A DNA stretch of 64,000 bases from Psococerastis gibbosa (lineage: Eukaryota > Arthropoda > Insecta > Psocodea > Psocidae), in assembly GCA_963971405.1 (NCBI GenBank), contig OZ020486.1, positions 4,526,001-4,590,000 on the forward strand, given 5' to 3'. Position 1 is the first letter of the stretch. Each line of letters starts with the position of its first letter. Below, piece after piece: positions 763 through 53,200 of the stretch. The translations under genes were made by a program, and so were the position numbers. Below the pieces are notes generated by a model that saw only the letters and a program-made list of their open reading frames with translations, did not search any database and had not been told where the DNA came from.

Positions 763-840
763 ACATTTTCTGGCTATGCTTCGGAGGGCATGTAAAACAG
801 GCGGTCCCTGGCCTTCCTAGTTGTGTGTAAGGGAGGGCTG
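763..840 (+). repeat. SINE-A fragment
   Basis: Matches the middle of the SINE-A consensus (CATTTTCTGGC...CGGTCCC...CTAG). It is truncated at both ends and joined directly to a fragment of the ribozyme-bearing repeat. Confidence 0.75.
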
Positions 841-935
841 ACAATGGGCTCCACTGTAATTGTTCAATGACTATGAGGCCGATGCCTCTAATGCGATGTA
901 ACTCCAACTTACCCTTTGTTAAATACACAAATCAT
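840..935 (+). repeat. Fragment of the hammerhead-bearing repeat (downstream half)
   Basis: TGACAATGGGCTCC, AATTGTTC, ATGAC and AACCCTTTGTTAAATA-type blocks align with the portion 3' of the ribozyme core in the 42.5-kb copy. The core itself and about 13 bp of the arm are missing. Confidence 0.6.
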
Positions 936-2320: not shown

Positions 2321-2540
2321 CAGCGCGCCATCTTGGGACAGTAACGAAGACTTTGTCCTGCCAGAACTCTACGCCGACGGGCAGGTTGTTCTCAGGCACA
2401 AACGCGCCGGACCTGATGGCATGTTCTCTGGTCTTCTCGTCCGGGTAGGCAAAGTCGACGGTCTTCCAGCTGTAGCGAAGCTGGAGTTTAGACGCGAGCT
2501 CGGCTTCAGCTGCGAAGATTACGTAAGCGACACACGCAAA
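2321..2540 (-). CDS. Internal exon of a yellow / MRJP-family protein (partial gene)
   Basis: Yellow-family proteins are secreted beta-propeller proteins involved in insect cuticle pigmentation and related processes. This exon reads from a pyrimidine-rich TTTTGCAG acceptor to a GCGCTG|GTAAGT donor (220 nt, phase 0 in, phase 1 out). The first residues (ACVAYVIFAAEA) look like the end of a split signal peptide. Then come KLQLRYSWKTVDFAYPDE, SGAFVPENNLPVGVEFW and DKVFVTVPRWRAG, all hallmark N-terminal motifs of the family. The upstream exon with the ATG should lie to the right but is not recognisable; downstream exons should lie to the left, probably beyond position 1, because 1-2320 holds only repeats. 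Which yellow paralogue this is cannot be decided from one exon. Confidence 0.92.
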
Positions 2541-2639
2541 CTGCAAAAGAAGGGAGTAAAGTTTTAGTAAAAGTGGTTTTTGAAGGGCTGTAGGTAGGAT
2601 AGGGGGTAGTAGTAGTGACTTGACTTAGGTAGGCGCATC

Positions 2640-3240
2640 CAGCCCAGGGGGACTTTTGGCCGTTGCCACTACACCACGCTAGCTTCCAGTCTCGGGTGAC
2701 GGTGGCATGCACATCTTCTAGGACTTGGTCTGAGCGTTGGCCTACCAGGCAGCCTAGTGTGGTTGAAGGCGTCTTCCAAAGCTAGCTTCAGCGCCCTCAT
2801 CACCGCCTGAATTCGGTGCACATGCTGACCCAGCCAGATTGGGAGAATTGAATGAAGATGGTAATAGTAAATTTGGCAAAGTCCCAGGCCACGGTGAGGG
2901 CCCTCAGAACACGCCCCATCTTTCTCACTCGGACAATTGCGGCCGTGAAGAGCGCCACCGCCTTTGGGCGAAGCTGATTCCCTGCCTGTAGTCCTCCCAT
3001 TGCGAAACCGACCGTGGTTCTCGCCAGACAGCCGGGCGGTTCATCAGCACGTGCGACACGGTTTTAGCGCCACGATCGCAGAAGCGGCAATCCTGCGAGG
3101 GAACCTAGACGGCTATACATCCAAGCGAGCAAGGTGATCTCGGAAGGTGCAATGTCCCGACAGCATAGCAGCGGCACAGCGTACTGCTTGTTGACTGCTG
3201 GAGATAACGTCTCGATTTAGCCGCTCGTCCAAGTGTAGGA
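2640..3240 (-). pseudogene. Non-LTR retrotransposon C-terminal fragment
   Basis: Minus-strand translation gives AAAMLSGHCTFRDHLARL, then CRFCDRGAKTVSHVLMNRP, the CxxC...H zinc-knuckle-like end found after the RNase H region of I/R1/Jockey-type elements. Frameshifts and stops break it. It lies to the right of the yellow exon, in the intron that should precede it. Confidence 0.7.
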
Positions 3241-3314
3241 GGCATAAAAGTAAATTAAAATTCATTATTTATGCATATGCCTACAGCCATGCCTAGTTGA
3301 ATCCACGAGGACTG

Positions 3315-3403
3315 AGCCTGTTCCAAACTGCAGCAAACTTGGTAGTGTGCAGAGCGTTGACTGGGGAACATGGGGGGACATGATAACGCGCTGAGTCTGC
3401 GAG
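3315..3403 (-). repeat. SINE-B fragment
   Basis: Matches the GGGGAACATGG...GATAACGCGCTGAGTC head of SINE-B. Confidence 0.65.
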
Positions 3404-5589
3404 TGATGTACGTGTCAATTTCTGGGCACATCCGTATTAGTCGAGTGGCTTTACTATTTTCCCCAAGCTAAAATAATTTTAAAAATTTATCACAAGTCGA
3501 CCATCTTCAGAACCTTGCCGTGGGAAGCCACGACATCACTAATTTTTCGAATATTGATGGTATTGTTTCCGTATGAGTTTTGGCCACCCAGAAACTGGCA
3601 CACTTCCTCGATGCTTCATACTATTCAATTAAAAACTGCGAAGAAGAGGGAAATTTCGCGGTTTTTCCAACATGATGCAATGGGGCAAAATGGCAATGTT
3701 AAGAAATTCGAGAAGAGCCGTCCAAAATCTATAAAAATGTCTGAATATATTTCCCTTAGCCCCCTTTTTTTCGTACCAATTAACTCTTATACGTCCAGAC
3801 GTGCATTATTAATTAAATTACACCCTCTTTAACCTCATCAAAAACCCTTTGGGTACAGAAATTAACAATTCCAAAAAGTGGTATTTTTTTGTGGTTTAAA
3901 AGGTTTGAATTCGTTTCAGAGCTTCACCCCTGGCAGCTGATTGTATGTTGCTGATGATGTGAATTCATGTAAGCGAATGAATATTGAAAAGCGCTGAGAA
4001 TTTCCGAATAAAGTGGCAGCCGTTTTTACCTTAGGGTGAAAATTGAATGAGGGACTGACCACAATAATGAACTTGTTTGATTTTATTGAAATACCAAACT
4101 GGGAAGGATTTCGTATTCCATATTTAATAGGATGTAAATAGAAATTGCTGTATTGTATCCTGTGGTTTTCGAGGTAAAAATAAACAGAATGCAATAGACG
4201 GAGCCTTATAATATCAAATAGGCTGCTTTGTTTAGGCATGTAAATTTCATGGGTTAGTAATGTAAGAGTCAGCCGAAAGACCCAAAATTCACCCATATGG
4301 AAAATATAGACAATTTTCTTTCTTTCTTTCATTCTTGGGACGAGAACCTATTAAGGGTACTGGTTGAGAAAAAGCGCGGGTCCTGTCCAGTGGTATTGTT
4401 TTCTTTTTATGTCGATTCCCGATCTTTGAACTTTCGTTTTATAAATTTTGGACTATTCTAGCCCGTGTTTTTAAGGTAAAAAAAAATGTTCTTTTATTCT
4501 TGCAAATAAGCTGTATTACCCAATAACTTACTTAATATTGTACCTACTGGTAAACTAAGAGTCATGTATAGTATACACCACTAGGGCCAAACTTCAGTTT
4601 CTACGTTCAGACAGTTTTGGTATTTCTAATCCCTTAGCTGATGTAGGCCCTATATATACAGTAAGATGCCAGTACTGCTAGTCAAATCAGATCTACTACA
4701 ACTGCGAGTGCCCCCCCCCCCTGATGAAAATCCAAGATTTTCAGGCCCTGTCCTATAAATGGGCCGACTGGGCATTTGCCCAGGGCACCAGTTGCGGCGG
4801 GGGGGGGGGGGCAGTCAAAATGAAGAAATGCCTCATACGAAATTCATGACAATCGGGGAAATAATAATAATAATAATAATTGTAATATGAAGTAAATAAA
4901 AAGCACGGAGTGGACTTCAAGTATCATCTGAAAGTGGCGCGAAATGTGAGTCTATTATTTTTATGCATGGTGCGAGCATGCGCATGTGGGCGGGAAAAAT
5001 ATGGCGTCAACCATGATTTTATATTTTGGTCGTATTTCTTACAATTTACTTTCGCAACATTTTGTTTTAATGGGGTAAGGGGCACTGGAAGACTAACTTG
5101 TTGCCCAGAGCCGCGAAATCTCAAGGTCACGGGGCCTAAAGATTGGCCCCTAACTTCATTTTATGTAAAGTTTAGTCTGTAATGTGATATGAAAAAATGT
5201 ATCATTACTATTTAAACTACTTTATGTACATGCTGAATTATCCATTAACCCATAGTGTATGATAAGCCCCCCCCCCATTTTCATTTTTTAGATCCGATCT
5301 TGGTTGACTGAAAAAGGGTGTGGATACATGCCACTATGGTTTCATCTATCTGACAAGTACTCTAATTTCTGATAGCTTTCGTGTCGCTACGTATAGTAAA
5401 GCCTTTAAGCCTTAGCTGACACATAGGCTGTTGACGTAATGCCTACAGTATGCCTCGGGTCTGTATCGGAGTGTTATTACAACTTCCAAATGTAATTATA
5501 TTGTAATTTGTATACTTGAAGAAAAATTATAACTATTATTATCATATTTATAAATAAATAAATAACAATTATGTGATCATGCCTTGTTT
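3404..5589. other. Gene-free stretch with scattered repeat fragments
   Basis: No coding exon recognised. It holds a LINE-tail-like block at 4255-4335 (relatives at 25930-26010 and 35325-35380), poly-C/G tracts at 4709, 4799 and 5267, and an ATA-rich microsatellite at 4861. The long frame on the minus strand at 3916-4332 runs into the LINE-tail block and has no domain. Confidence 0.6.
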
Positions 5590-5968
5590 AGGCGCCCATT
5601 CCACCGACCGGCTAGGGCTATTTACAAAAACGGTGACGTGATAGCAGACATTCAAGACTTAGGTGGCGTCTCCACCGACCTCGCATTGCAGAATTGACGG
5701 AAATGTTTATTTTCCTCTATGCCATAATTAAAATTGATCAATGATCATACAGTAAAATCACAAACAAACTAAAATTAAAAAATGGCGTCATGGGATAAGT
5801 TAAATACAAACATTTTAATAGATTTCTAAAAAAAGAAAAATTCTAATTTCCGTCAATGTCATTTGCATTCTGCAATGCAAGGTCGGTGGAAACGCCACCG
5901 TCCTGAATGTCTGCTACCACGTCACCGTTTTTGTAAATAGCCCTAGCCGGTCGGTGGAATGGGCGCCT
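5590..5968. mobile_element. AGGCGCC MITE copy 1, intact
   Basis: 379 bp with terminal inverted arms of about 120 bp (AGGCGCCCATTCCACCGACC at each end, inverted). Short AT-rich interior, no ORF. Confidence 0.9.
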
Positions 5969-7270
5969 AAGCAGCACTGTATAAGTCCTTTGTCCCAATC
6001 AAGCGCTAGCTTGGGGATGCCGGCATTATGGTATTATTTGTATTGTATTTTGTGAATATTATATGCTCCTTTTCCAGTGAATACTGGGCAAGGAAATAAA
6101 AGAAAGAATAAAGAAAGAAAGATTATTATGATTTTTTTAAGGACTTTTAATGGACCCAGGCCTACTTATAGTGGCCCATGGGCAAGTCCGTAACCAGGAT
6201 TTTTTTGCGGGGGGGGGGGGGTTGAAATTTCATTGGATATTACATAGTGGTTTTTATTTTTCCTCTCAAAATTCAAATTCTATCTAGTATCAAGCCGTTT
6301 CATTTCGGGGGGGGGGGGGGTTGAACCCCCCCCCCCCCTACGGCCTTGCCCATAGGTCCCTTGCACAAATTCAATTTTGGGGGCGAGTAGCCCATCACGA
6401 CGCCAATGCTTACAAGCCAAGTCAGAAAATCCCTCTGATGAGATCTTAAAAGCATACTGATACTCTGAAGGTCCAAATAAAAAGAGCCATTACTCATATT
6501 CTCGGCCTATTAATAATTAAATCCGCTCTAGTTATCAATTGTAACAATGGAAGTACAGGCACTATAATACCTGGCCTACCTAGGACATAAAGCAGGGCAC
6601 TTTCAAGGTACAATAACTGTCGTGTATTTGACGGATAGCCAACCTGAACTAACTACTAATGTCTTCTCGGCCACAAGGTATAATTATTTGCAAGAAAGCG
6701 GACCGTATCATCCGTCGTACCTATTTATTAAAATTACGTGACACAAGTCCGTTGATCGTACGTCGTAACCCTGTATTCATTGTACTTCATTGTCAGGTCG
6801 ACTCGTAGCCCGAACTTGGATAACAGTTTCAGTGATTTTGGGTCACTTATCAACCCACCGGGAAATTTTTTTTTCTGACTCCCGTAAAGTGGGACTGCAG
6901 CTGCCCCGCGCTCAAAACACAGTAGAAGAACATATTATAGCTTGGTGGTTTAAAATGTTACCGCGCACTTATTTGACGAGTCTGGCGGCCTATCTTATTG
7001 AAAAGTCTACATATTCTATTTTTATTTATTATTAAGCAGTTTATGTAAATGTATATCGCAAAGGGTTAAGTCACGCTCATGATGTCTGTTACAATAATGA
7101 AAACAAGCACGTCATAGCTTGTTCGTTGTCATGAAGGAAATTTTGGAAATTTGCCAGTGACTCTCTCGTACTGTACTCGTACTGTAAAGGTACGAGTGAA
7201 CGCGTACATGCTCTCCTTTTTATCAATTAAGTTATAGTAATAGCTCCTTGTTAAAAAGGAGCCGTTTCTA
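5969..7270. other. Gene-free stretch
   Basis: G and C runs at about 6208 and 6307 belong to hAT-like debris. The segment 7040-7240 (GGTTAAGTCACGCT, GGTACGAGTGAAC) is shared with copies near 10 kb, 11.5 kb and 16.3 kb, so it is part of a larger dispersed repeat. No exon seen. Confidence 0.55.
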
Positions 7271-10715: not shown

Positions 10716-11017
10716 AGGCGCCCATAGAAATCTTTTAAAATGTTTGTACTTAACATATCCCATGACGCCATTTTTTAATTTTAGTATGTTTGTATGTGAT
10801 TATACTGTATGATCATTGATCAATTTTAACTATGGCATAGAGGAAAATAGTACAAACATTTTAATAGATTTCTATAAAAAGAAAAATTCTAATTTCCGTC
10901 AATGTCATTTGCATTCTGCAATGCGAGGTCGGTGGAATAGTCACCAAAGTCTTGAATGTCTGCTACCACGTCACCGTTTTTGTAAATAGCCCTAGCCGGT
11001 CGGTGGAATGGGCGCCT
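10716..11017. mobile_element. AGGCGCC MITE copy 2, left arm deleted
   Basis: Starts AGGCGCCCAT then jumps straight into the interior; the right arm of about 120 bp is complete and ends GGGCGCCT. The interior lies in the opposite orientation to copy 1. Confidence 0.85.
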
Positions 11018-22329: not shown

Positions 22330-22558
22330 AGAAGTAGGCGATCGCTGTAGCAGATTTGGCGTTACCCAGGGTGCACCACGAGGAGGCCTGCTACTTTGCA
22401 CCCCTTTTCACTATGTCACGGTGGAAGAATGGACGAAGACCACCTGAGGGACTGCACGGCTCTCACCTACCCGAACGATAACTTGGTGAACCGCTATTGG
22501 GAAGCTCGGCGACGAATGGTTGAACTACCACGTTCGGGCGTTGGATAAAGTAAGTAAA
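22330..22558 (+). repeat. Retroelement 3' fragment with GTAA tail
   Basis: Moderate-GC segment ending GGATAAAGTAAGTAAAT, like the tails at 2190 and 17165 but with a different body. Confidence 0.5.
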
Positions 22559-26559: not shown

Positions 26560-27170
26560 ATACGAAAAAACATGCCTGCTCCAATTAAAAAAACATAAAT
26601 TTATCATAAGAAGAGTAAGAAATAACACTTTTCTTTGCATTTACTCATACTGTATTTTCATACAATATATTTTCATGATAACACCGTTCACATTCAGTTT
26701 TAATTCAGTAAAAGTATAAATAATTTCATTTTTTTTTAATATAGGTCTTCATTAAATACAAGACAAACTTCCAGCAATCCATTTAGCTTATGTTAATTTA
26801 TAATAAAATAAAATACATGTAATACAATAAATAAAAACATTTTGGTTATGCTGGTTACAGATAGACAATTTCTTACAACTAGCCTAATAACTTAGCCTTA
26901 AAATAATTTAGTTTACAAACATCAACCATCAAAAGCACCGTTTTAATACAATAATTCGTTTTTAGTTCCAGTTTCGTTTTGCTTTAATCATAAACTTAAG
27001 TAACTGGTAATCTATTCATAAAAAAAATCATGAACAGATTATTACAGCCACGTAACAAATTACTAGACGATTTGAACGAACCAATAATTGATGTACACTG
27101 CAACTACTTTCAGGAAGACAGTGAAACGCTTCTTAATGTCCGGGTATGTATTTTATGTTTTAAAAATTTC
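26560..27170. other. Gene-free stretch
   Basis: AT-rich; no exon or repeat family member recognised. Confidence 0.4.
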
Positions 27171-27171
27171 C

Positions 27172-27245
27172 CGAAACGTCGCCCCCTTGCCCTGGCAATG
27201 ATTGTTCGATGACTGTGAGCCCTCTATCTCTAATGACCATCCCAG
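27172..27245 (+). repeat. Hammerhead-repeat fragment (3' half of core)
   Basis: Begins CCGAAACGTCGCCCCC, the catalytic GAAAC and GUC cleavage triplet of the family, then GTTCGATGACTGTGAG. The CUGAUGA half is absent upstream. Confidence 0.6.
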
Positions 27246-38200: not shown

Positions 38201-41200
38201 TCATCCATACAAAATGATTCAATAGCTCAGTTGACTTGCGAACTGCACTACACACCTCCCGAGGGTGTTTAGTTAGCTAAGAAATTATGCAAAATGGCGT
38301 TGCGCCCAGCAAGGTCCCGTGCGGTCAGTACCACAGAAGCGGTCCGTTTGAGCTTAACTATTACAGGAGCTCGTGCTGGGCAATTAATTGCGCAATAAAT
38401 TAGTAAAGGCGTGCGCAAGATGCACCGGACAGTGCACGCGCTCATTGCAATGCCCTTACACAGATTGCATTGCCGGCAACCTTGGAAAATTATTAATTAA
38501 TAACTTTTTAGTATAAGGAAAGCTTTGTGATGGTCGATGGAACCCACACAAGTGGTCTTTACGAAATGTCTGTCTATTCGTCGACTTGTGCGCAAACAAC
38601 ACGGTGGATTTTAATGAAATTTGGCATATACGCTCACAAAAATCACATCATGGGTCACTTTTTTTTCTTTTGGGCTAACTTAGTATGGGAGAGTTTGCCG
38701 TCCAAAAATGTCGAAAAACTGATAAAAACTATTTTTCTTAAGAACGGCTCCAACGATTTTCTTTAAATTCATAATTTATTTTAGTCGTTATTAATGGAAA
38801 TAAAACCCAATAGGTCGCTTGTCTCTCGATAGTTTGATCCTCAATTTTAATCGAAAATTACGAAACAAATAATTTTTCTGCGGAACCTTTCTATTGATTC
38901 TTTCGAACGTCATGCAAGTTTTAGGTGTTAATTAAAGTAACAAAACCAACCCCCCCCCCCCCCGTCTGGCTACGGTCTTGCATGTTACAAGTACGCCAAC
39001 ATCCATAAAATGCCCTTCAGTAACATTGCTCGAAGCCTATAAGATGCACACACGATAGGATAAAGTTGCCGGTCAATGCCTTGCAATTAAATATTATAAG
39101 ACAGTATTGGTAGGTAACCTTGGAAACGTAAATAGCTCATTGCATGTGATATGCAGATATAGTATTGCAAAGACCCATTCATAACGATTAGGTTGGCACT
39201 ACTGGTGCATTATCTCGCGCCTTGCCCTTGTTAGTTGGCAAAGAAAATTGCTTCCTGTACTTGGGAATGAATACTGTATGGTAAAACCGCATAATGCTTA
39301 TTGCAATGTTATTTAGTCGCGTTATGCGGGTTCCGTGTACGTAATTCCAAAAATCTAGAATTATGATATGAACATGTATCGGATTTAATGTAATCAAATG
39401 GTATACTGCATATATAGCAGAGGCTACCCAGGCCATAAGGCGCCCATTCCACCGACCGGCTAGGGCTATTTACAAAAACGGTGACGTGGTAGCAGACATT
39501 CAAGACTTAGGTGGCCTTTCCACCGACCTTGCATTGCAGAATTGACGGAAATGTTTATTTTCCTCTATGCCATAGTTAAAATCGATCAATGATCATACAG
39601 TAAAATCACAAACAAACAAACTAATATTAAAAAATGGTGTCATGGGATATGTTAAGTACAAACATTTTAATAGATTTCTATAAAAAGAAAAATTCTAATT
39701 TCCGGAAATGTTTATTTTCCTCTATGCCATAGTTAAAATTGATCAATGATCATACAGTAAAATCACAAACAAACAAACTAATATTAAAAAATGGTGTCAT
39801 GGGATATGTTAAGTACAAACATTTTAATAGATTTCTATAAAAAGAAAAATTCTAATTTCCGTCAATGTCATTTGCATTCTGCAATGCAAGGTCGGTGGAA
39901 ACCCCGCCTAAGTCTTGAATGTCTGCTACCACGTCACTGTTTTTGTAAATAGCCCTAGCCGGTCAGTGGAATGGGCGCCTTACCATAGTTTCAAGCTTCA
40001 GTAGGGAGCTAAATTGTCTTCAAATTAGTTGAGCTTCTGAGTAATCCCTAATGGTCTCAGAAGCGAAAACTCGAAAATCCCCAATTTAAACCTTCTCGAG
40101 GTGAAGATTGAAGCGCATAATGGTGACTAAACAGATAGGGGACCGAGTTTGGGCCGGGATAAGTGAAAACACTTTTCTGTGCAGTTCTCAATAGAAGAAC
40201 CCAATGATGAGACAATAGCACATTGATCTATATGTATAAATGGATAGGTACCACCATTCACCAAGTGCGTGCCCCAAGGTTACCACCCTCTGCACGGCAA
40301 GAGTTTGCAGCATGCATAAAATAAACTTTAAAAATGGTGCAAAAAGCAAGAAATAACTATAAAAAAACGGTCCAAAGTAATTTTTAAATTAAATTAAAGC
40401 CAATGCACTCGGTAGAATCAATTTCTTTTTGCGAATTTTGCCGTGCAAACCCAATTTGTCTACTGCTGGCGCGACCTTGGGGCACGATTTTGTTGCATTG
40501 CCCATATGGCGAGAACCACCCGCCTGCAATAGCATAAGGATGCAGAAGACAACGGGAAACCACTGCATTACAATTACTTAGGATGATCACCATGACTACA
40601 ATCGCCATGATGATAGCCAATCTTAGATTGAAGAGACATTTTAAGAAGAAGAAGAAGAAGTTACTCGTACTTTTCCAGATGTAAAAGTCGTCATTTCTTT
40701 TCCAAAGCATTTCTGTTTTAAGCTTTGGTGGAGGGAGTGGGTCTGCTTATTAACTTGGGGCACCCTAAGGGCAGACTCCTTCACTTCAAAGAGAAGGGAG
40801 TTGACTAACAGGGTGGACCTCCTGGTTATAGTGGATTCCGAACCACTTGGGGAACATACAGTAGATTCACACGTTTAATTTGGAGGTGACCAGGACTCGC
40901 TACGCACGTAGACAGACTGGTGTAGTCTCAGCGCGTTATCATGTCCCACCATGTTCCCCTGCTAAAACTGTGCACACTACCAAGTTTGCCGCAGTTTGAA
41001 ATACGCACTGCCCTCGTGGTTTCAACCGCAGTTGTTTTACCGTTACCGTTATTGTTGATGCGGTTGCTACAGTGTGTGTTGCTGTTGAATTGGTTATTAA
41101 TATTCATTATTTCTTTATTATTATTATTATTATTAAATAAGCCTATTATAATATTATTATTCCTTACCTCGACAGCAGCTTTGGGCAGGCTGGCGACAGA

Positions 41201-44200
41201 TATGTTGAAAGTCAAAGCTTCGTTCCATACTGGATTTCTGGTGCCCTTACGCACTGCCGTCTTTTTCTTTTTGTTCCTTTTTCCTTCAGCTAACAGGTAC
41301 ACTTTGACAAAAGGATCTGCGAAAAGAAAGCATACAGTAAAAAGGCACTAAAACATTACTCGTTCTACTATTGTAGTACCCGACCACGATAGGATGGCAC
41401 TTGGAATACTTTGATTGTTTGAAAACTTGTTTAGGTGGAACACAGCGAGTTTATTTGATTTCTTTAAATGTTCCAAGTGTCATTCTATCGTAGTTGGGTA
41501 GTAATAAGCAAAAAAAGAAATCTTTATTGTTGGGAAACGAACCCAGTCCTTCCTTCCAACAACAAGTTTGGCTTTACAACCCACACCGACAATGTCATTA
41601 TCATATAGCATGTAGTCCAAACCTCTGTGATGTAATTATAATTCTGGACATAATCGTAAAGGAACCCCACCTTGAACTAAATGCGTATAGCATGTGATAG
41701 AAACATAAATACAGGTACACACACATACATCATTAAACAGAACTACTACTGTAATGACAACAATACCATTGGTACGCAAGAGAGTATAAAAACATTTGTT
41801 ATGGTAATTAAGAACGATCTTTATGGTCAATGGAGATCTAAAAAGGCGAGGCAATGCGCCATTTGCTGAATACTGATTACTCATTGCTCATTATAATGGG
41901 AAAGTTTATGCAGCTAAAGGACAGGAAAAGGGTGGCATGTATTTTACCTCAGCCATGCCGTTTTTAAAGAATTACTTAACCTATGGATTAAAAATGTAAA
42001 CAACCGTACCGGTAGCCGGCGTGTTCTAAAATTATTTTGTTTTTAAATTTTTAACCTCACAATAAGATAAATTCTTTAATCGGCATGGTAGGCAAATTTT
42101 ATGTAAATTAATTTTTTCTACACTGTTTTTGTGGCCGTGTGATGCAGTGAGGCCGCCACTGCAGACTTCGGAAGACCTGCAGGCCCCTGCGCAAGATTTA
42201 TTAGTAGCTTAAATATTTCAGGGCTCAGGTGCAGGCTTCTGGGGGAGGGAGAGGGGGGGGGGGTGGAAAGAGGCCGATACTAAAAGGATCCTTGCACAAA
42301 GGTTCATAGTCGACTACAAAGCGCATTTATAAGGGAAGGAGAACCAGCCCCCCCCCCCCCCAAAAGGTGGGGTCGGCGCTTTTAAGAAACCTTCTTACAC
42401 CTGAGCCAGAGCCGAAAGATCTATTTGTAAAGGTTAACGGCAATGTTGTAATACTATTTCACAAAGGGGTTAGTTGGACTTCCCTTGCCGGTTGTGTTAA
42501 TAGCCATCAGAGGCATGGGCGTCATGGTCATCGAACAATTAGCGCGGAGCCCATTGTCAGGGGAAGGGGGCGACGTTTCGGGAGTGGGTGCTACTCCCAT
42601 CATCAGGCTTAGCCTTGAGCAGGACTCTAATGACTATTAACACAACAGGCAATGTAAGTCCAACTAACCCTTTGTTAAATAGAGCCGAAAGAGATACTTT
42701 TTGTACGCTTGAAAAGGTTTCTAATCCTCCGCGGTTGATAATAATAATGAATTATTTAAAAAAAAAAAAACTGGAATATAATTGGCGGGAAGAACTTTCG
42801 TCAGTAGTACCAGCTTAGCAAATTCGTGACGGCCTTGTTGTGCAAATGATCACGTATAGGCAACCTCTATAACTAGTTACTTCCACGAAAATTGGTTTCC
42901 TCTCATTCTCCAGCGGTAGTAGATGTCAATGACTATTTAGAGAGGCATTTAGGAAGGAAGAAACCTTGACGGAGGATCGTATGTAGGAATTAGGAAAGTA
43001 CAATATACAGACATATTGGGAACGACTAGGGAGGTTTAGCGGATAGTGGAACCTAATTAGAGACTTGCGGGCTTGGATGAGTAGAAAGCATGGACAGCTC
43101 GACTTCCACTAAGGCGCCCATTCCATTGACCGGCTAGGGCTATTTCCAAAAACAGTGACGTGGTAGCAGACATTCAAGACTTAGGCTACGTTTCCACCGA
43201 TCTCGCATTGCAGAATGCAAATGACATTGACGGAAATTAGAATTTTTCTTTTTATAGAAATCTATTAAAATGTTTGTACTTAACATATCCCATGACGCCA
43301 TTTTTTAATTTAAGTGTGTTTGTTTGTGATTTTACTGTATGATCATTGATCAATTTTAACTATGGCATAGAGGAAAATAAACATTTCCGTCAATTCTGCA
43401 ATGCGAGGTCGGTGGAAACCCCGCCTAAGTCTTGAATGTCTGCTACCACGCCACCGTTTTTGGAAATAGCCCTAGCCGGTCAATGGAATGGGCACCTTAA
43501 AGCTGGCCATTAATGAGGGCTCCAAACGGAACTGCGCCAAGCCAAATGGCGCGTCCTGTTCCATATGGCGTTAGCGCAATTTTGAGGGGTCATCACGACT
43601 ACGCTAAACCAGTCGCTCCAAATCTTTCAAATTGTACAGTGTGACGATATGGAAGAGGTACTTTTACACTGTACAATTTGAAAGATTTGGAGCGACTGGT
43701 TTAGCGTAGTCGTGATGAAAATTGCGCAAACGCCAAATGGAACAGGACGCGCCATTTGGCTTGGTGCGAGTCCGTTTGGAGCCATCGTGAATGGCCAGCT
43801 TAACACAGTTTCTAACAGGACTGGCAGTTTTCGGGCTTTCCTTCATGAGTGTAAAAAAGTACAACTAACCGGTGCATGTACAATGGAGAAGAGGATGCGG
43901 CCGCACATACTTTCTTTGTCTGTCGGCGGTGGGAAAACGAGAGGAGGGCATGTGAAGCCAAAACTTTAATAAAACAATATGCTCTTAATTTATATATTGT
44001 AGCATTGTATGACATATAATACATAATATATATAATATACATAATAATCCATTTTTTTAGAAATATATTTAAATGTTTGTACTTAACATATCCCATGACG
44101 CCATTTTTTAATTTTAGTTTGTTTGTTTGTGATTTTACTGTATGATCATTGATCAATTTTAACTATGGCATAGAGGAAAATAAACATTTCCGTCAATTCT

Positions 44201-47200
44201 GCAATGCGAGGTCGGTGGAAACGCCACCTAAGTCTTGAATGTCTGCTACCACGTCACCGTTTTTGTAAATAGCCCTAGCCCGTCAATAGAATGGGCACCT
44301 AACTATGCCACACCAGGCCAATAAAACCCGCATTCAGTTCAGTTCAGCCATTGGTTGACGGATGCGCTACTAGTGCTTTATGTATAGGTAGAAACGAGTA
44401 TTACAAGTCTGCCATATTGTACGCATGACACAACGGAAAAATTCAGGAAGAATAATTGTTATGTGTTAGCTCAGGGGTTCCCAAACTGTGGACCATGGAC
44501 CACTGGTGGACCACAGACATTTATCAGGTGGTCCACGGAGCAAAGTAAGAAATAAGAAAATAACACAGCTGAGATATTGGAATTATGAAGTAAAATACAG
44601 TATATCTTGGCACTCAACTATAAAATCCAACCGATACGGTCAGTCCTAAATATTTAATATAATATTAGCATGTAATTGTAGGCACAAAGTCATCCTAGAA
44701 TTTGACGATTTTCCTGTCGCAGCTACGTGGTGGTCCACGGAAAATCATGAAATAAACCAGTGGTCCATGGACAAAATAAGGTTGGGAACCCCTGTGTTAG
44801 CTAATTAACTAATTTCCAGGTTACCTAAATTGGCCAAATCGCTCGTGAATACTTCTAGCAGCCCTATTATGGCGATTTTGGATTAGCATAATACCGGGGT
44901 TTATTCAATTGTTGTAAACAAATGAGTGCAAAATGCGCGCGAAATTCAAATTGATAAATTAATCCTCGGCTATATTTTTGGTGAGTTTTCAATATTTTCT
45001 CCCTCAGAGGCAGGCACATTAATTAAAATTCATATTATATTTCAAAATTCTACCTGTACATTTTAATGTTCATTAGTATTTTCTTCAATTATTAAAAAAT
45101 GCAACCATTCTCTTGTATTCAAATAGTTTATTAATTTGAATTTCCCGCGCATATTTTAACACCGTCACGTGACATCTTACTAATGCGGTATTAAAAAAAT
45201 AAACGCCGATATTTTTATAAACCCCGTATTATGTTAATCCCAAATTGCTATAATCGGACAACTGAAGTGTATGTGTATATACTTTGATAGTAAGGAACAA
45301 GTTCGTGCTATATTTTGCCGTGTGTTTTTTTTTTTTTTAAATGTGCAAAGATTCAATTAATTTTGTATACAATTAATAAATATCCATTGTCTTTGATTCA
45401 AACGCTGATGTGAAACACTATTAACGGATACAAGGGGGGGGGGCAGGGGGTAGTAGCCCCCAAAAATTAAATAAATCAGTTGTAAGTTAATTTATTACGC
45501 TCTAATTTACTCGATACTACATAATTATGTGCATGTATATGTTATATTTTAACCCACAACTACCAACAGAGGCGGTCCCAGACCTCATAAAAGGGGAAGG
45601 CACTTGCCCCCCCGGGAGAAATTTTTTGAAAAATATGGCCGAAATGGTGAGGATTTACGCATTTTGAATGCAGTAACACTTAGATTTTAGAGGCAAAAAA
45701 TACAACTGCTGTCCAAGGGGGGGGGGGGGGCTCTGACTACCAAAAAAAGCCCCTGATTGGACTCATCAATTAATATTGTAAAACTACAGCAGAAAAATTG
45801 TGTTGAGTTGGTTGAGGCATTTTGTGCAATTCTTACGCGATCAACAATCATATTATAATTAATTGATAATTACAGCCCACACGAAACACTTGCTCAGTCA
45901 ACTTACCGTTATTTTTCTGCTGTGATGTGACATATGAGGAGGCTGTTTACAAACATGGCCAATTCCAAGTTGTAGAATTTTTCAGGATAGCGGATTTTCT
46001 GTTGTAAATTTGATTAAGTTTATAGCTAATCTTAGACTTCACAGAGCTTCTGTGCGCAATCTGGCTGCATTTGTCATTTTATTTTACAACGTGCAGGTGG
46101 ACATTAAAATTTTCTGCAAGGTCGGATCAAAACCCCATTTTGTGATAAAAAGGAGTAGGCCACGTTTGTAACCAAGCTCCTCATATTATGACGTTGTTTA
46201 CCTTAAGTAACGCTCTGTAAGCAGGGACGGATCCTTGGGGGGGGGGCGGTGGGAGCAGTCGAGAAAAATAGCTTTACACTAGATAGAATGGACTTTTGAA
46301 GGAAATGAAGAGAAATTGTTACTCAAGTAAGGGAAACGCGATATTTTTCAGGTCACCATCCCCCCCCCCCGAAAACTTTTTCTGAAACCGTCCCTGTCTG
46401 TAAGCCTACTATGGCGATTAGTATTACCCTAGTCTTGGGGTTAAAAATGTAAACAAAACTATTTTGAATAGCACTTTCCATTATAAAATTATCTTGTTTA
46501 TATTAATCCCAGATTAAGGCTAAAATTAACCGCTCGCTGGAATATTTGTTTCTGACTTTTTCCTTAGCATGTGAGTAAAACAATAATTGCAAAAAATTAT
46601 GTAACTTGAATGGTTAATGTGCGTTCAACCTACAATTATCCGGTAGCCAATAGCCAAGATGGGATTCGAGATAAATGAAAAATCATTAAAGTGCAATTTA
46701 TATGGTGAGCTGCCGGACAGGCAGTCGACCAGGCTAATTTAGTAATTATGGTGATCTACCTGGTGTATTTACGACACAGCGATTAGTTTGTATTAAAGCC
46801 AAGATATAGTGTATGATAGTGCTGGGGCGCGCGATAATATACGAAGGGCGCGATAACTATTCCTGATAAAAAGCTCGATTTAACGTTATTTCACGTCATT
46901 CCAGACCATGACAAAGTCCTTGGACGCTGAAGAATAAAGAGGAGTGAAAGAGTGGCTTAAGTGGTTAGAGAGCTTGTCGGGAGAACGGTAGGTAGTTCGA
47001 ATCCTTACTCCTTAACCTTTACTCAATAATTCAGAGTAGAATACAAGAGCAATGAGTCAATCGTCCAGAAGCCATCAGTCCTTATATCAGGACTAAGTCT
47101 GATGATGGGAGTAGCACCCACTCCTGAAACGTGGCCCCTCCCCCTGACTATGGGCTTCGCCCTAATTGTTCGATGAGCGTGAGGCCCTGCCCCTTCTTCT

Positions 47201-50200
47201 TCAAGCTACTGGCAGCAACATGTGGCCTCAATGCATCCACTCCCCTCGATCCTGGCACGCCCTCTTCAGCTCCACGTATGCATTGGCCCCTACATCATTT
47301 ATAACTTGCTTCAAATACTTTTTTCTCGGGCGCCCAAGACGGTTGACGTCTTTTATTGCTCCCTCTATGATGCAGCTTACGAAAGTTCTCGTGTCGAAGC
47401 AAATGTCCAATCCAGTGAGCTCAATTCTTTTACTTATCGATGGAGTTATTAAATAAATAAATAAATATGGACTTTGTGTTATATTACTAAGCCAACCTAG
47501 CGGAATTAGGGCTATAAGCCCTCTCTTACATTCAACTAGGAAAGCCCGGGTCCACCTGCTTGGCCAGCATGGCCAGAAAATGTAGCAAGTGTGGGACTCG
47601 AACCAACAATCATTCGGGTGAAAGTCGGAGTCTGTACCACTACTCTACATATCCTTACTTTTGTTTCGCTTACTCTGATTAGAACGTCCTCATTTGTAAC
47701 ATGGGCTTGCCAAAGTATACGTAGCATGCGACGATAGCACCACATCTCAAATGCTTCGAGTTTCTTTAGTTGTTTCTCACTTATACACCACGTTTCACAT
47801 CCCTGCCTCTAAAATCGACTTCGATGGCCAGGTGGTAACTTGCTTGCACTTGTGCGAGTCTTTACACGCCATGCAATCGGAGACGTGTCGTACTCATCAC
47901 GGGTAATAACCTACAGAGGCGACTGAAAAGGTCAATCGGATACATTCATTAAATTGTTTGTAAGCGATTTATCTTTTTTAAAAGATAAAAAAAAATGAGT
48001 ATTAACACAGCAGGTAATGTAAGTCAGCTAACCCTTTGTTTAATAATATTACACCATTGCCATTAACCTTTACTTTTTCATTCATTTCACATCATTTCAA
48101 TTAATTCACTTCATTCAGTTTCATTTCAGTACGTTGCGGGAGATTACGGGTCCTAGCACTAACTCATTTAAATACTATTTCTTACCTATTTCAACCTTAT
48201 CTTGCGGGAGGAAGAGATTCCTCGCCTTGAGTATCGTGACTGTAAGACGCTCGGCGGAAGGCAAATAGCTGAGGGACACGAGGATTTCTTGAAATTCCTC
48301 GCGTGATTTCTTGTTTTTGCTAATGTCACTCCACACTTCGACTCCTGAGGCTACTTCGATCTCTGCCAATGACAAACGTACTTCTCCTACGACGTCGTTG
48401 CGCGAGAATCGATCATAATCGAAAATCTAGAATTAAAAAGGATAAGAACCAACTAATTAGAATGCTTAAATTCTGAAATAGCCTGCATTATACTCTGCCT
48501 CTATGCAGGTTTGGCAATCTCAATTTGGATGCATAAGGCTTAGTTTTAGTCTTTAGGGTTTTGAGACCGCTACTGCACATCGGCTGAGGGGAGTTTCTAG
48601 AGTTTCTGTAGCAATTTCATCCCTCTTCTCTAAAACTGTTCATAGTGCAGGTTATATATACCGTACTTCAAAAATTCACATTTTTTTCTAACTAATTTCG
48701 CAATTTTTTTTGGTTTTCCAACACTTCTTTCATACCTGCACAACTAAAGTCTTCTCGCGTAACTCCTCATGAGATACAGGAAACTTGAAAGTCTGATCGA
48801 AATAAGGGTTGTTATCCTGTCGGCTGACAGGAATCTGTCGTTTCCTGTTGTCTACGGCAGGGGAGAGCTGCAGGCGCACGTAAGGGTCATTGTAGCCTCC
48901 ACACTCACTGCCAGCTAGGTCATGTGCTGCGAATCAATTGAAAATGAGACAAAAATGAGTGAATTGGAAATATTTAAAGGACTGGAGTGATATCCACTAG
49001 TAAATTTTATTCCAGTACTTGGACGAATGCTCCAGTGTGATGCTAATGAGCGACTTTAAGCGAAACCACAGCTTTTAGACATTTTAATATGTTATGCTGT
49101 CGGATAACACTACTTAGAGATACTTCTTTTTCTATGCGTCCTATATGTATGCATCTACTTGCGAAGATTAGCAATCAGGATGGCAATTAAGACCTTGGGC
49201 TCTACTGTTCTAAAAAAGGATCTCGTGCTCTTGCCAAACTACTGCCACAGGGTGTTCAACCAGGTGTTCTTCTTCAGCCGGGAGCTCACTGTTCTTCTTA
49301 ACTTCCCTTGGATTATAAAGTGCAGCAGAAAGCGATACCTGATATAGTATGTGAGGTTTTGTTTGTTAACCGGTAGCAGCAACTCGGCTTCTTTATCCAT
49401 TTGCCTCAGGACTTGATCTCTCCAAGATATAATGCACATCATTCGTGTCTATAGGTATATACACCGATTCTTTTCTCCACGGGTGAAAATCCGTCCCTCT
49501 ATATCATATGGAACTTATTGGAGATCCAGAGTACATATACTTAATGGTGAAGAAAACCTCTATAGGCAAGTACAATATATAAGAGAAAGGCAGACATGGC
49601 AAAATTGACGGAAAAAGGATTGAAACTTGAGCCGCCACCCGCCAGAATTGGGCGCAGTGATCAGCATACCCCGGCAAGGTGGAAATATGGGTTTGAATCA
49701 CATTTCCATCCGTTTTTCCATATCTCGCATTAATTAGACTGCACTCAGATTAAAACAATTCAAGAATTCTCTTAACTCGATAAATTACAGACACAACTAG
49801 ATCAACAATGCTGATCTGGATCAACTAATTAACAATAAAGTTATTAACTTAATTTACATACAGTAGGTATGTCGTAATCAACCAGAGCTAGCCAACTACT
49901 GAAGTACTGTACACGTATATCATACTACGCTATAGGTATCCATCAATAACATGGCAGTCCTCAGGCCAATTAGTTGTCAAAGCAATAATTCATAAGACTT
50001 CCACACTTTTGCGCAAAAAGTGGTCTTTTAACTCATTACGCTTTGCGATTACCAGAACCTTATTGTTTCTTTCTTCGTTTTTATAAGGCCTAGTCAAGAT
50101 GAGACTACCAGACCATTTAAAGTTTTAATCATTTCGCTCACAGAGTCAATCCAGTTCTTATTCCTGAATTTTCTCTATAAGGTGCATCGTATTGTAAATA

Positions 50201-53200
50201 GGTTTAGTTGGTAAATAAATCACGATCTATTCTGCTGAATCTAGATTTATCGTCTAGAAGAACAAGTGTTGTCAATGGCAGGAATGAGTGCAGACTAGTT
50301 CATAAATATCTGAGACTTAGTGTTTGATTTAATTTTCTATAAATTTTCAAAATGACTCCTGGAGAGCGCCGTTTATAAACAGTCGTAGAATTAAATGTAT
50401 TGCAGTTATTTAACAGTCATCGGCTCAGAGTAGAGCGGTCAAAGTAGGCCTACAATCATCCACTGTCATTAATAGTTAAAGTTACCTACCCAGGGGCAAA
50501 TACAAGGTTTTCGGCAGATTGTCTTCAAACTTTATTGGGGTAATTGCGACATTTCGTGCATAGAACAAACAGGCCGCAATTTAAAGACAGTATTAGTGAG
50601 CATCAAAGAGAGGTTGGTAGGCAGGATGGTGATATTCTGGCTTTGCAAAACGCTTCAACCTCTCAAGATACATCTCAGGACTCTCAAACTTTAAAATTTT
50701 GCATGATTGTATAATAATGGTCAACATAAATAATTAGATTACTCGTGACTTCGTGGTATTTAATTTTAATAAACAAAAAGTAACAAAAACTTAGAGTTTT
50801 AGAAAAACTTGTTATAACAACCCGAATTAGTAAAACCCAAATAATCGTTGAGAAATTAACTTTGTCTAAGAAACCCACTTGTGTTAGTATAAAACCCTGA
50901 GCGCTTTCGGCAAGAACTGCCATCTACAGAGGGAAACCCACTAGCACAGTTACACCTTATCTGCAAGTCTCAAATCGCAGGTGTAACTGTGCTAGTGGGT
51001 TTCCCTCTGTAGATGGCAGTTCTTGCCGAAAGCGCTCAGGGTTTTATACTAACACAAGTGGGTTTCTTAGACAAAGTTAATTTCTTAATGATTATTTGGG
51101 TTTTAATAATTCGGGTTGTTGTAACAAGTTTTTCTAAAACTCTAAGTTTTTGTTATTTTTTGTTTAATAATGGTCAAAATGGGAAAATTTCCACATTAAT
51201 TTCCATCCTTGTAATGTATTCCATCAACTTCTATAAAACTGTTTTTTTGATGTTTGTTTACCAACGCAACGCCTGCTTTCAGAATTTCTGCTTATAAACA
51301 ACCCTGTCAGCCGGCGGAGTGAGTGAGTTTGTTTGGTAACCATAAGGGCAGACTCCTTCACCTCAGGGAGATGGGAAGTTGACTGACGGGGTGAACCTTC
51401 TGATTTTAGTGGATTCCGAACCACTTGGGGAACATAGTAAAGTTAAACGAATAATTGGGAGGTGACCAGGACTTGATATGCACGTTGACTGACTGGCAGT
51501 CTCGGCGCGATGTCATGTCTCACCATGTTTCCCCGCCAACGCTGCGGACTCTACCAAGTTTGCCAAAGTTTTGGACAGGCCCTCTTTTGGTGGATTAAAC
51601 TTGGTACGGCCGTTGGCATTTCAGTAAAACTTCTAGTAGGTTTTACCTTCAATTAGATGAACTAGTAGATCGGATCGGTCAAAGTCGTATTTGAGACGAA
51701 GATGTATTTTTCCCAGGCTGGGGTCGTTGGACGTCGTATTAATGAACAGCGGTCCGTCCTTCTTCGTGTATAAGTCCGGTTGCAGCGCCCCTAGCGGGCT
51801 GGACGGCGGTACAGGCGACTCATTGGACAAGGACCTCAATGTGCTTGGTATCAGCAAGGGTGACAGACACCTGCTTACGCCTGAAAAGGATAAAAAGGAC
51901 ACGAAATGAGGCAAATTGTCATTGTACGTCTACGATAAAACCTTCCTCATCAATGAAAGGGGAAGAGGGCAGAAATTTCGTGAATAAAAGGTCGCAGACC
52001 GGCTGCGGAAGGCCAAATGTCCCACTGGGGGTTGAGCAAGACCCAATGTGTTGGGTCAAGGTCCGTTCCCATTGCTAACTTTCATTGGGTGTTTTTCGTG
52101 ATGGTGGTTGACGTTGATGGAAAATTGCACGAAGGTGTGGCAGGTGAAACTGGGAAGAGAAGACCAATCAACGATGATAGCGCTTTGAGTTCACAAAATT
52201 TTATTCCTTATGTACATGCATACCAGAGTGGTGGAGGAGAAGGTGCACTATAGATGAAACTTAGGGCGAAAGACTTTTCAGTGAACCTATGCATGGCGTC
52301 TGGGTTGCTCTCGGAGAATATCAATAGGACGAGCGCCCTCATAATAATAATATCATTTTTACTTCTACCAGGTTCACTAGTTGGTCCGACTCTATTGTTT
52401 AAGTTCTCACACCAGATTGGCGTGGAAACTAAGGTGAAATAGATGAAACTGTCCACGAAAGACTCGTCAGAGACCTTACGTTCAGCCCCTCGTATGCCCT
52501 CCGAAGTGATCATGTAGGCAAGCTTCCTAACGATATTAGCTTCATGACTTCCTCAAGGTTCACTGCTAGGCCCTATGCAATTCGTTATGCATACATACCA
52601 GAGTGGCGTGGGGACGAAGGTGCAATAGATGAAACTGTACACGAAAGACTCGTCAGAGATCTTAAGTTCAGCCCCTCGTATGCCCTCCGAAGTGATCATG
52701 TAGGCAAGCTTCCTAACGATATTAGCTTCATGACTTCCTCAAGGTTCACTGCTAGGCCCTATGCAATTCGTTATGCATACATACCAGAGTGGCGTGGGGA
52801 CGACGGTGCAATAGACGACACTGTTGACGAAAGACTGCTCAGTGATGTTTGGCTTGGCGTCTGGGCTGCCCTCAACGGAGATGGAGAACGATTGGCGCCA
52901 TCCCCAGCCGCTGCGTTGTTTCCGGTTTTTCCGTCAGGCGAGAAAGTTCGAATTTGTGGTGAAGATCCTCTATGGTCGGTGCTCTGAAACCAAAACAAAT
53001 TAAACCACCCACGATTATAAAAATATCGGATCATGGTCACCCACAGAGTAGAGAGGTGACAGTGCGTGAAAGACATGGCTAAGTCAGCACCTCCTCCAGT
53101 GACTAGGTCAACTTTAGCTCAGTAGGAGGTCACTCATGAGCTAGGTGCCTAGGAAGCACTGAGAAAAAATATTTGTAGTGGAGAAAACTCAGGTTAAAAT

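Follow-up and report, generated by a model that had tools for sequence, protein, structure and literature searches.

A family of short interspersed elements in Psococerastis gibbosa that appears to be built on the 5' junction of a Penelope-like element

We analyzed a stretch of 64,000 nucleotides from the insect Psococerastis gibbosa (assembly GCA_963971405.1, contig OZ020486.1, positions 4,526,001 to 4,590,000), referred to here as the window (C3:4526001-4590000 in the 409 Mb of host genome that was searched). At 42408-42692 the window contains a small insertion, with its duplicated target site, that belongs to a family of short interspersed nuclear elements (SINEs). We conclude that this SINE is non-autonomous, and that it is probably built on the 5' junction of a Penelope-like element (PLE) and inserted by PLE machinery. 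Somewhat less firmly, we favor the view that the family forms a SINE class of its own, one that copies the PLE 5' junction, between the pseudo-long terminal repeat (pLTR) and the open reading frame (ORF), and not the 3' end of a long interspersed nuclear element (LINE). At that same strength we propose that, together with two PLE families of this genome (PLE-A and PLE-B), it records a general rule of integration: two opposed reverse transcriptions per event, one from an outer site and one from an inner site.

The element in the window is a 261-bp insertion bounded by an exact duplication. The 12-mer AGAGCCGAAAGA occurred twice in the whole window, at 42408 and 42681, and the two occurrences flank 261 bp exactly. 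The parts of the insertion are as follows.

42408..42419, plus strand: left copy of the target-site duplication AGAGCCGAAAGA, an exact 12-mer
42420..42680, minus strand: the insertion, a 5'-truncated SINE copy plus an inverted 5' arm, 261 bp, without a tRNA-like head, bounded by the duplication and aligned with genomic copies
42420..42455, minus strand: 36-nt tail at the 3' end, outside the left arm; the other end has no tail
42456..42512, minus strand: 3' arm
42457..42600, minus strand: open frame that starts with the AUG at the base of stem II and has 48 codons in the window copy, in a position that matches the start of the PLE-B ORF
42572..42606, minus strand: hammerhead-like motif, CTGATGA-T-(6-bp stem, 7-nt loop)-GAAAC-GTC, in which helix III would be the palindrome ACGU
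42625..42680, minus strand: inverted 5' arm, which repeats the 3' region in antisense, starts at the inner site and has no tail; its junction differs in other copies
42681..42692, plus strand: right copy of the target-site duplication AGAGCCGAAAGA, an exact 12-mer

As an inverted repeat, the arms pair 42464-42517 with 42620-42673 (54 nt, 85% complementary), and because of them the whole 261-nt strand is predicted to fold strongly (-100.6 kcal/mol, z = -9.3). No ORF with reverse transcriptase (RT) and GIY-YIG domains was found inside the 261 bp. A sequence-only reading of this DNA had proposed a small non-autonomous retroelement at 42457..42680, with a hammerhead-like core on the minus strand inside inverted arms. 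Motif, strand and arms were as described, and the proposal of a small non-autonomous retroelement was supported, but the element itself is somewhat longer (42420-42680, plus the 12-bp duplications).

The family looks like a SINE family because some copies carry a tRNA-like head. A genome-wide search yielded 3095 candidates, and scoring of the best 40 gave 118 matches. The 35-nt motif occurred 1121 times in the genome with at most 3 mismatches (one insertion with a long inverted arm can contribute two of these matches), and the reversed pattern occurred 0 times. In longer copies the motif is preceded by short AGTCCTTMTCAGGACTAAGCCATC repeats, and these in turn by a tRNA-like head that has stretches resembling A and B boxes; 10 such heads, in 9/29 loci, were picked up by a fuzzy B-box search. 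The anatomy looks like that of a tRNA-derived SINE, with the tRNA origin read from these short boxes. The motif did not occur in direct tandem arrays in the loci read. BLAST found three further members of the family in the window.

46979..48073, plus strand: second SINE copy, with a tRNA-like B box at 46979-47004, the motif at 47099-47133 and the 3' end at 47994-48073, interrupted between
27169..27222, plus strand: family fragment that starts inside stem II
838..925, plus strand: 3' fragment of the family

These three copies, like the flanking repeat AGAGCCGAAAGA and the 36-nt tail at 42420-42455, were unmentioned in the sequence-only reading. Elsewhere in the genome, two SINE copies 2.8 kb apart (G000:C14:4687689 and 4690467, locus L009) have flanks that are 99.7% identical and probably lie in a duplicated segment, and one copy (L065) has its last ~60 nt tandemly repeated, as judged by eye.

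SINE insertions have two fixed end sites, and nearly all of those resolved have a tail at exactly one end. In each insertion one arm repeats the 3' region in antisense from one of two fixed points; the length of the inverted arm and its junction vary between insertions. The two end sites are 144 and 180 nt after the second ATG of the motif (counted on copy L015). We gave 26 two-armed insertions to an end-position script, which resolved 25 of them (all except L012). The truncated arm at L022 697-816 and the nested copy L046 were left out of the count, the duplicated L009 copy was counted once, and L010, L015, L019 and L028 have a single recognizable end each. The tail (~36 nt) was present at exactly one end in 23 of the 25 insertions, at neither end in 2, and at both ends in 0 (left 13, right 10; p about 2e-5 by permutation of the ends). 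This count should be less affected by the similarity-based choice of copies, because nothing in that choice disfavors two tails. A duplication score of at least 9 was obtained for 13/25 insertions versus 5/600 mismatched flank pairs, and the good target-site duplications were about 11-18 bp as scored.

Insertions of PLE-A and PLE-B have the same signature. PLEs were found through GIY-YIG loci (48 matches among 150 scored candidates) and by protein searches, and the family letters (A, B, C, E, F and G) are labels of this analysis. PLE-B is young: of 3739 candidates the best were scored, and the resulting 92 matches are 91-100% identical. Its tandem copy L056 contains a 923-aa ORF with RT and GIY-YIG domains. 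The ends of 23 PLE-B matches fell mostly at two sites, 10 at 142-161 nt and 9 at 196-205 nt into the ORF; the 4/23 rows at neither site comprise two old ones in L021, an L044 row shortened by a deletion, and the uninterrupted first copy of L056. In the clear inverted pairs (L040, L041, L044, L052 and window 50723-51170), exactly one end was longer in 5/5; the inner end of L044 was read by eye, and the L021 pair was not counted among them. The PLE-B pair in the window served as the comparator for the SINE signature.

50723..51170, no strand assigned: PLE-B solo palindrome with a 43-nt tail at one end and none at the other

This palindrome also contains sub-threshold Rfam microRNA matches (mir-359, MIR4228, mir-7973 and mir-785). 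Inverted pairs of PLE-A (L031, L033, L034 and L038, paired by eye) have a common extension of 42-45 nt at one end only, 4/4. The SINE thus resembles both PLE families in its inverted arms and one-ended tail. The sequence-only reading had called the inverted arms unusual, since retrozymes normally sit in direct repeats. The arms do not contradict a retroelement of this kind, because they are a common insertion product of the SINE, PLE-A and PLE-B in this genome, and such mirror-image arms look like a by-product of PLE-type insertion.

The 3' part of the SINE has the layout of a PLE 5' junction. The ORF of PLE-B (in L056) starts at the ATG within the motif CTGTAG-ATG-GCAGTTCTTGCC-GAAAGCGCT, and the second ATG of the SINE occupies the same motif position. 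Stem II of the SINE motif does not directly follow A9; one extra U lies between them. This U had been counted against a hammerhead, an objection that lapses because PLE families A, B, E, F and G share the nucleotide. It is part of an AUG in PLE-B, E, F and G, with an ORF start there read in PLE-B, and the explanation that we offer is that the extra U is present in these motifs because it belongs to the start codon. In PLE-A, the frame from the ATG at the motif closes at once. Helix III is palindromic in all PLE motifs read (A, B, C, E, F and G); its minimal form is ACGU in the SINE and ACAGCUGU, ACCGGU and AGCGCU in the PLEs of this genome. The SINE is like Penelope/Poseidon-type PLEs in that it has a hammerhead-like motif in which a U precedes stem II and the minimal helix III is a palindrome. 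It is unlike PLEs in that it has no RT/GIY-YIG ORF, has a tRNA-like head in some copies, and matches no PLE family examined in sequence.

Published work on PLEs describes features that fit this layout. The purified protein of PAc, a PLE from Anolis, cuts and extends both DNA strands (PMC11167929). It starts reverse transcription at internal positions early in the ORF, with two sites whose spacing matches the known 30-40-bp tail (PMC11167929). PAc accepts RNA trimmed to +20 on the 5' side and requires the first 172 nt of the ORF (PMC11167929), and the SINE spans the region that matches this required part around the ORF start. The PAc ORF starts at stem II, and 26 nt downstream of that start lies the site at which the hammerhead cuts; it cleaves only when protein is added, and hammerhead mutants still insert in vitro (PMC11167929). 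The two end sites of the SINE recall the two start sites near the ORF start in PAc (PMC11167929). In that study the start sites showed no difference between the strands, whereas the two ends of the SINE are different (PMC11167929). A curation guide states that PLEs show inverted pLTRs and short 3' extensions (PMC8969392), and PLEs have been put forward in a review as possible movers of retrozymes (PMC7761336).

We propose that the SINE would be mobilized in trans by a PLE protein through two-sided priming. Where present, the 5' part would act as a tRNA-like RNA polymerase III promoter, and the 3' part is laid out like a pLTR-ORF junction, with the hammerhead-like motif, an AUG at the base of stem II and a frame of 180 nt. 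The PLE protein would use the SINE RNA as template, cut the two target strands at positions about 12 bp from each other, and prime reverse transcription from each. On one strand, synthesis would start at the outer site, 180 nt after the AUG, and give the end with a tail; on the other strand, it would start at the inner site, 144 nt after the AUG, and give the end without one. The two cDNAs would end at variable points and then be joined, and would therefore leave inverted arms. The 3' part of the SINE would be descended from a PLE that was not seen in this genome.

Several observations weigh against this interpretation, some of them concerning the tRNA-like head and the signature itself. ARAGORN called 0/10 heads at its default threshold (3 calls at 85% and 13 calls, 5 of them Leu, at 70%), and no Rfam tRNA match was found in the 7 SINE-bearing loci scanned. 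The SINE frame from the motif AUG is open through the tail in 9/35 motif rows (L001-L028), the rest being often decayed or without that end; it is broken in most copies, and its openness could be chance. The genome searches scored only the best of thousands of candidates. Two of the 25 insertions were tail-less by script, and L012 has a tail at neither end; L008, which was scored tail-less, shows a partial tail in the alignment. The tail is 36 nt in the SINE versus about 43 nt in the PLEs, and the SINE tail lacks the CCACGAAGTCAC stretch that is common, by eye, to PLE-A, PLE-B and L077 (in the tail in A and B).

A CCACGAAGTCACGAG-like stretch was seen in the PLE-A tails of L031, L033, L034, L038, L035, L039 and L032, and a stretch like it lies near an ATG in the PLE-B tail and L077. 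It could be a conserved start site or protein-binding site of PLE RNA.

The search for an autonomous partner also weighs against PLE mobilization of the SINE. Compared with 25 GIY-YIG loci, the SINE 3' sequence gave a single match, which came from a SINE copy with a PLE-A fragment nested inside it, and compared with 20 further PLE 3' ends it gave none. From 150 matches we chose 20 SINE copies that had long frames, and their 3' flanks had nothing in register beyond the tail; there were a few short out-of-register matches (dispersed repeats), plus the duplicated L009 segment. A partner sharing the SINE 3' part was thus absent from the PLEs examined, though the layout is that of PLE-B; no LINE search was made. 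Two candidates were rejected. The SINE-flanked GIY-YIG fragment at L046:1190-2003 is the nested PLE-A fragment, with its own ~13-bp duplication (by eye). The 617-aa frame at C2:35765049 (L055) comes from a SINE copy directly before a host exon, into which the frame runs. The PLE parent of the SINE may be extinct, rare or decayed. In L055 itself (2463-4316; G000:C2:35764962-35766815) the SINE frame is open into the exon, and the copy might give the host gene a new first exon; the host exon is a candidate exon of tamo.

The hammerhead-like motif may have travelled along with the PLE-like 3' module, and its cleavage is putative. The minus strand at 42572-42606 reads CTGATGA-T-GGGAGT-AGCACCC-ACTCCC-GAAAC-GTC, with a perfect 6-bp stem and a 7-nt loop. 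A motif descriptor (CTGANGA, 0-1 nt, a perfect 4-7-bp stem, a 3-8-nt loop and GAAA, on both strands) matched the window once, whereas 200 windows simulated with a first-order Markov model had 0.035 matches on average and never more than 3. If the element were of the retrozyme type, its RNA would be cut at GUC, circularized and reverse-transcribed. In favor of such an active self-cleaving element, the CUGANGA, GAAA and UH cleavage residues are intact in the window copy and all catalytic residues are kept in 21/34 aligned copies, the motif segment is slightly more uniform than its flanks (0.92-0.98 versus 0.89-0.93), and the palindromic ACGU permits a dimer. We nevertheless consider it unlikely. 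These conservation figures are upper bounds, because the copies were picked by similarity to the window element, a choice that inflates uniformity, and substitutions in stem II are one-sided, which is decay. The covariance-model scan that had been suggested as a check found no match to the Rfam hammerhead models in the 321-nt stretch 42400-42720 even at E = 10, a result against the motif as a hammerhead; with the same limit on E, 8 other loci, including 7 that contain SINE copies, also gave none. Folded by itself, the 76-nt motif stretch has ordinary stability (z = -1.3), and the lowest-energy structure of the monomer differs from a hammerhead in that the extra U is paired to G12 and GAUG to CGUC. 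By inspection, helix I has 2 proximal base pairs with mismatches beyond, and the second window copy has GTG in place of GTC at the would-be cleavage site. The young and mobile PLE-B has the broken core CTGTAGA in place of CTGATGA, as if cleavage were unnecessary, and the ability of PAc hammerhead mutants to insert in vitro points the same way (PMC11167929). In the SINE, any cleavage may occur as a dimer or with protein.

The SINE does share some properties with metazoan non-LTR (non-long terminal repeat) retrozymes, which are likewise small and non-autonomous with a type-I-hammerhead-like motif (PMC7229834). However, retrozymes are described as short direct tandem repeats (150-450 bp) with canonical hammerheads and circular RNAs, whereas the SINE occurs as single insertions with inverted arms, its minimal motif contains an extra U, and some copies have a tRNA-like head (PMC7229834). 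The suggestion of a PLE- or retrozyme-like hammerhead thus held for the resemblance to the minimal PLE motif with its palindromic minimal helix III, but the element is not a retrozyme in the published sense, given the absence of direct tandem arrays in the loci read and the tRNA-like head of some copies.

Three other origins are less likely than a SINE built on a PLE junction. That the family is a standard tRNA SINE which a LINE moves, and that its 5' inversions come from twin priming, is quite unlikely. tRNA-derived SINEs have a tRNA-like head, target-site duplications and a high copy number and are moved by LINEs, and this family is like them in all three properties, the head being carried by some copies; the head, the duplications and the 5' truncation would suit any target-primed element. 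However, twin priming inverts an upstream part of the RNA, whereas the inverted part here repeats the 3' region from a fixed start in independent insertions, and the same pattern occurs in PLE-A and PLE-B. The family also differs from LINE-moved SINEs in having a 3' part laid out as a PLE 5' junction, not as a LINE 3' end, and ends and arms of the PLE pattern. That the element is instead an internally deleted PLE, a pLTR remnant, would explain why the 3' module, inverted arm and tail are all PLE-like, but is also quite unlikely, given that several independent copies have a tRNA-like head before the motif, that the window element encodes neither RT nor endonuclease, and that the parent was not found in the PLEs examined. 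Inverted arms between short direct repeats also recall a DNA transposon or a fold-back miniature inverted-repeat transposable element with terminal inverted repeats. We give this almost no credence, because the arms vary in length and junction and the tail is one-ended; in addition, some copies are truncated and some have tRNA-like heads.

Other features were seen in the window. An inverted-repeat family is represented at 43110-43499 (107-nt arms, 93%), with copies at 5587-5971, 39436-39982, 44052-44300 and 10724-11017. A 35-bp perfect palindrome at 43608-43701, with weak sub-threshold let-7 and MIR8024 matches, is probably a fold-back repeat. A weak match to the hepatitis delta virus ribozyme on the minus strand at 22346-22406 (29.4 bits versus a cut-off of 50, E = 3) is probably due to chance.

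Among the papers listed by literature searches, none described a PLE-moved SINE, which is weak evidence of absence since subscription papers were mostly outside their coverage and the listings were incomplete. The family touches on the way in which PLEs integrate, on the meaning of their tails and inverted arms, and on whether PLEs move other RNAs. With many hundreds of small, simple insertions that carry a two-site, one-tail footprint, it would make these points testable in vitro with one protein and one RNA.
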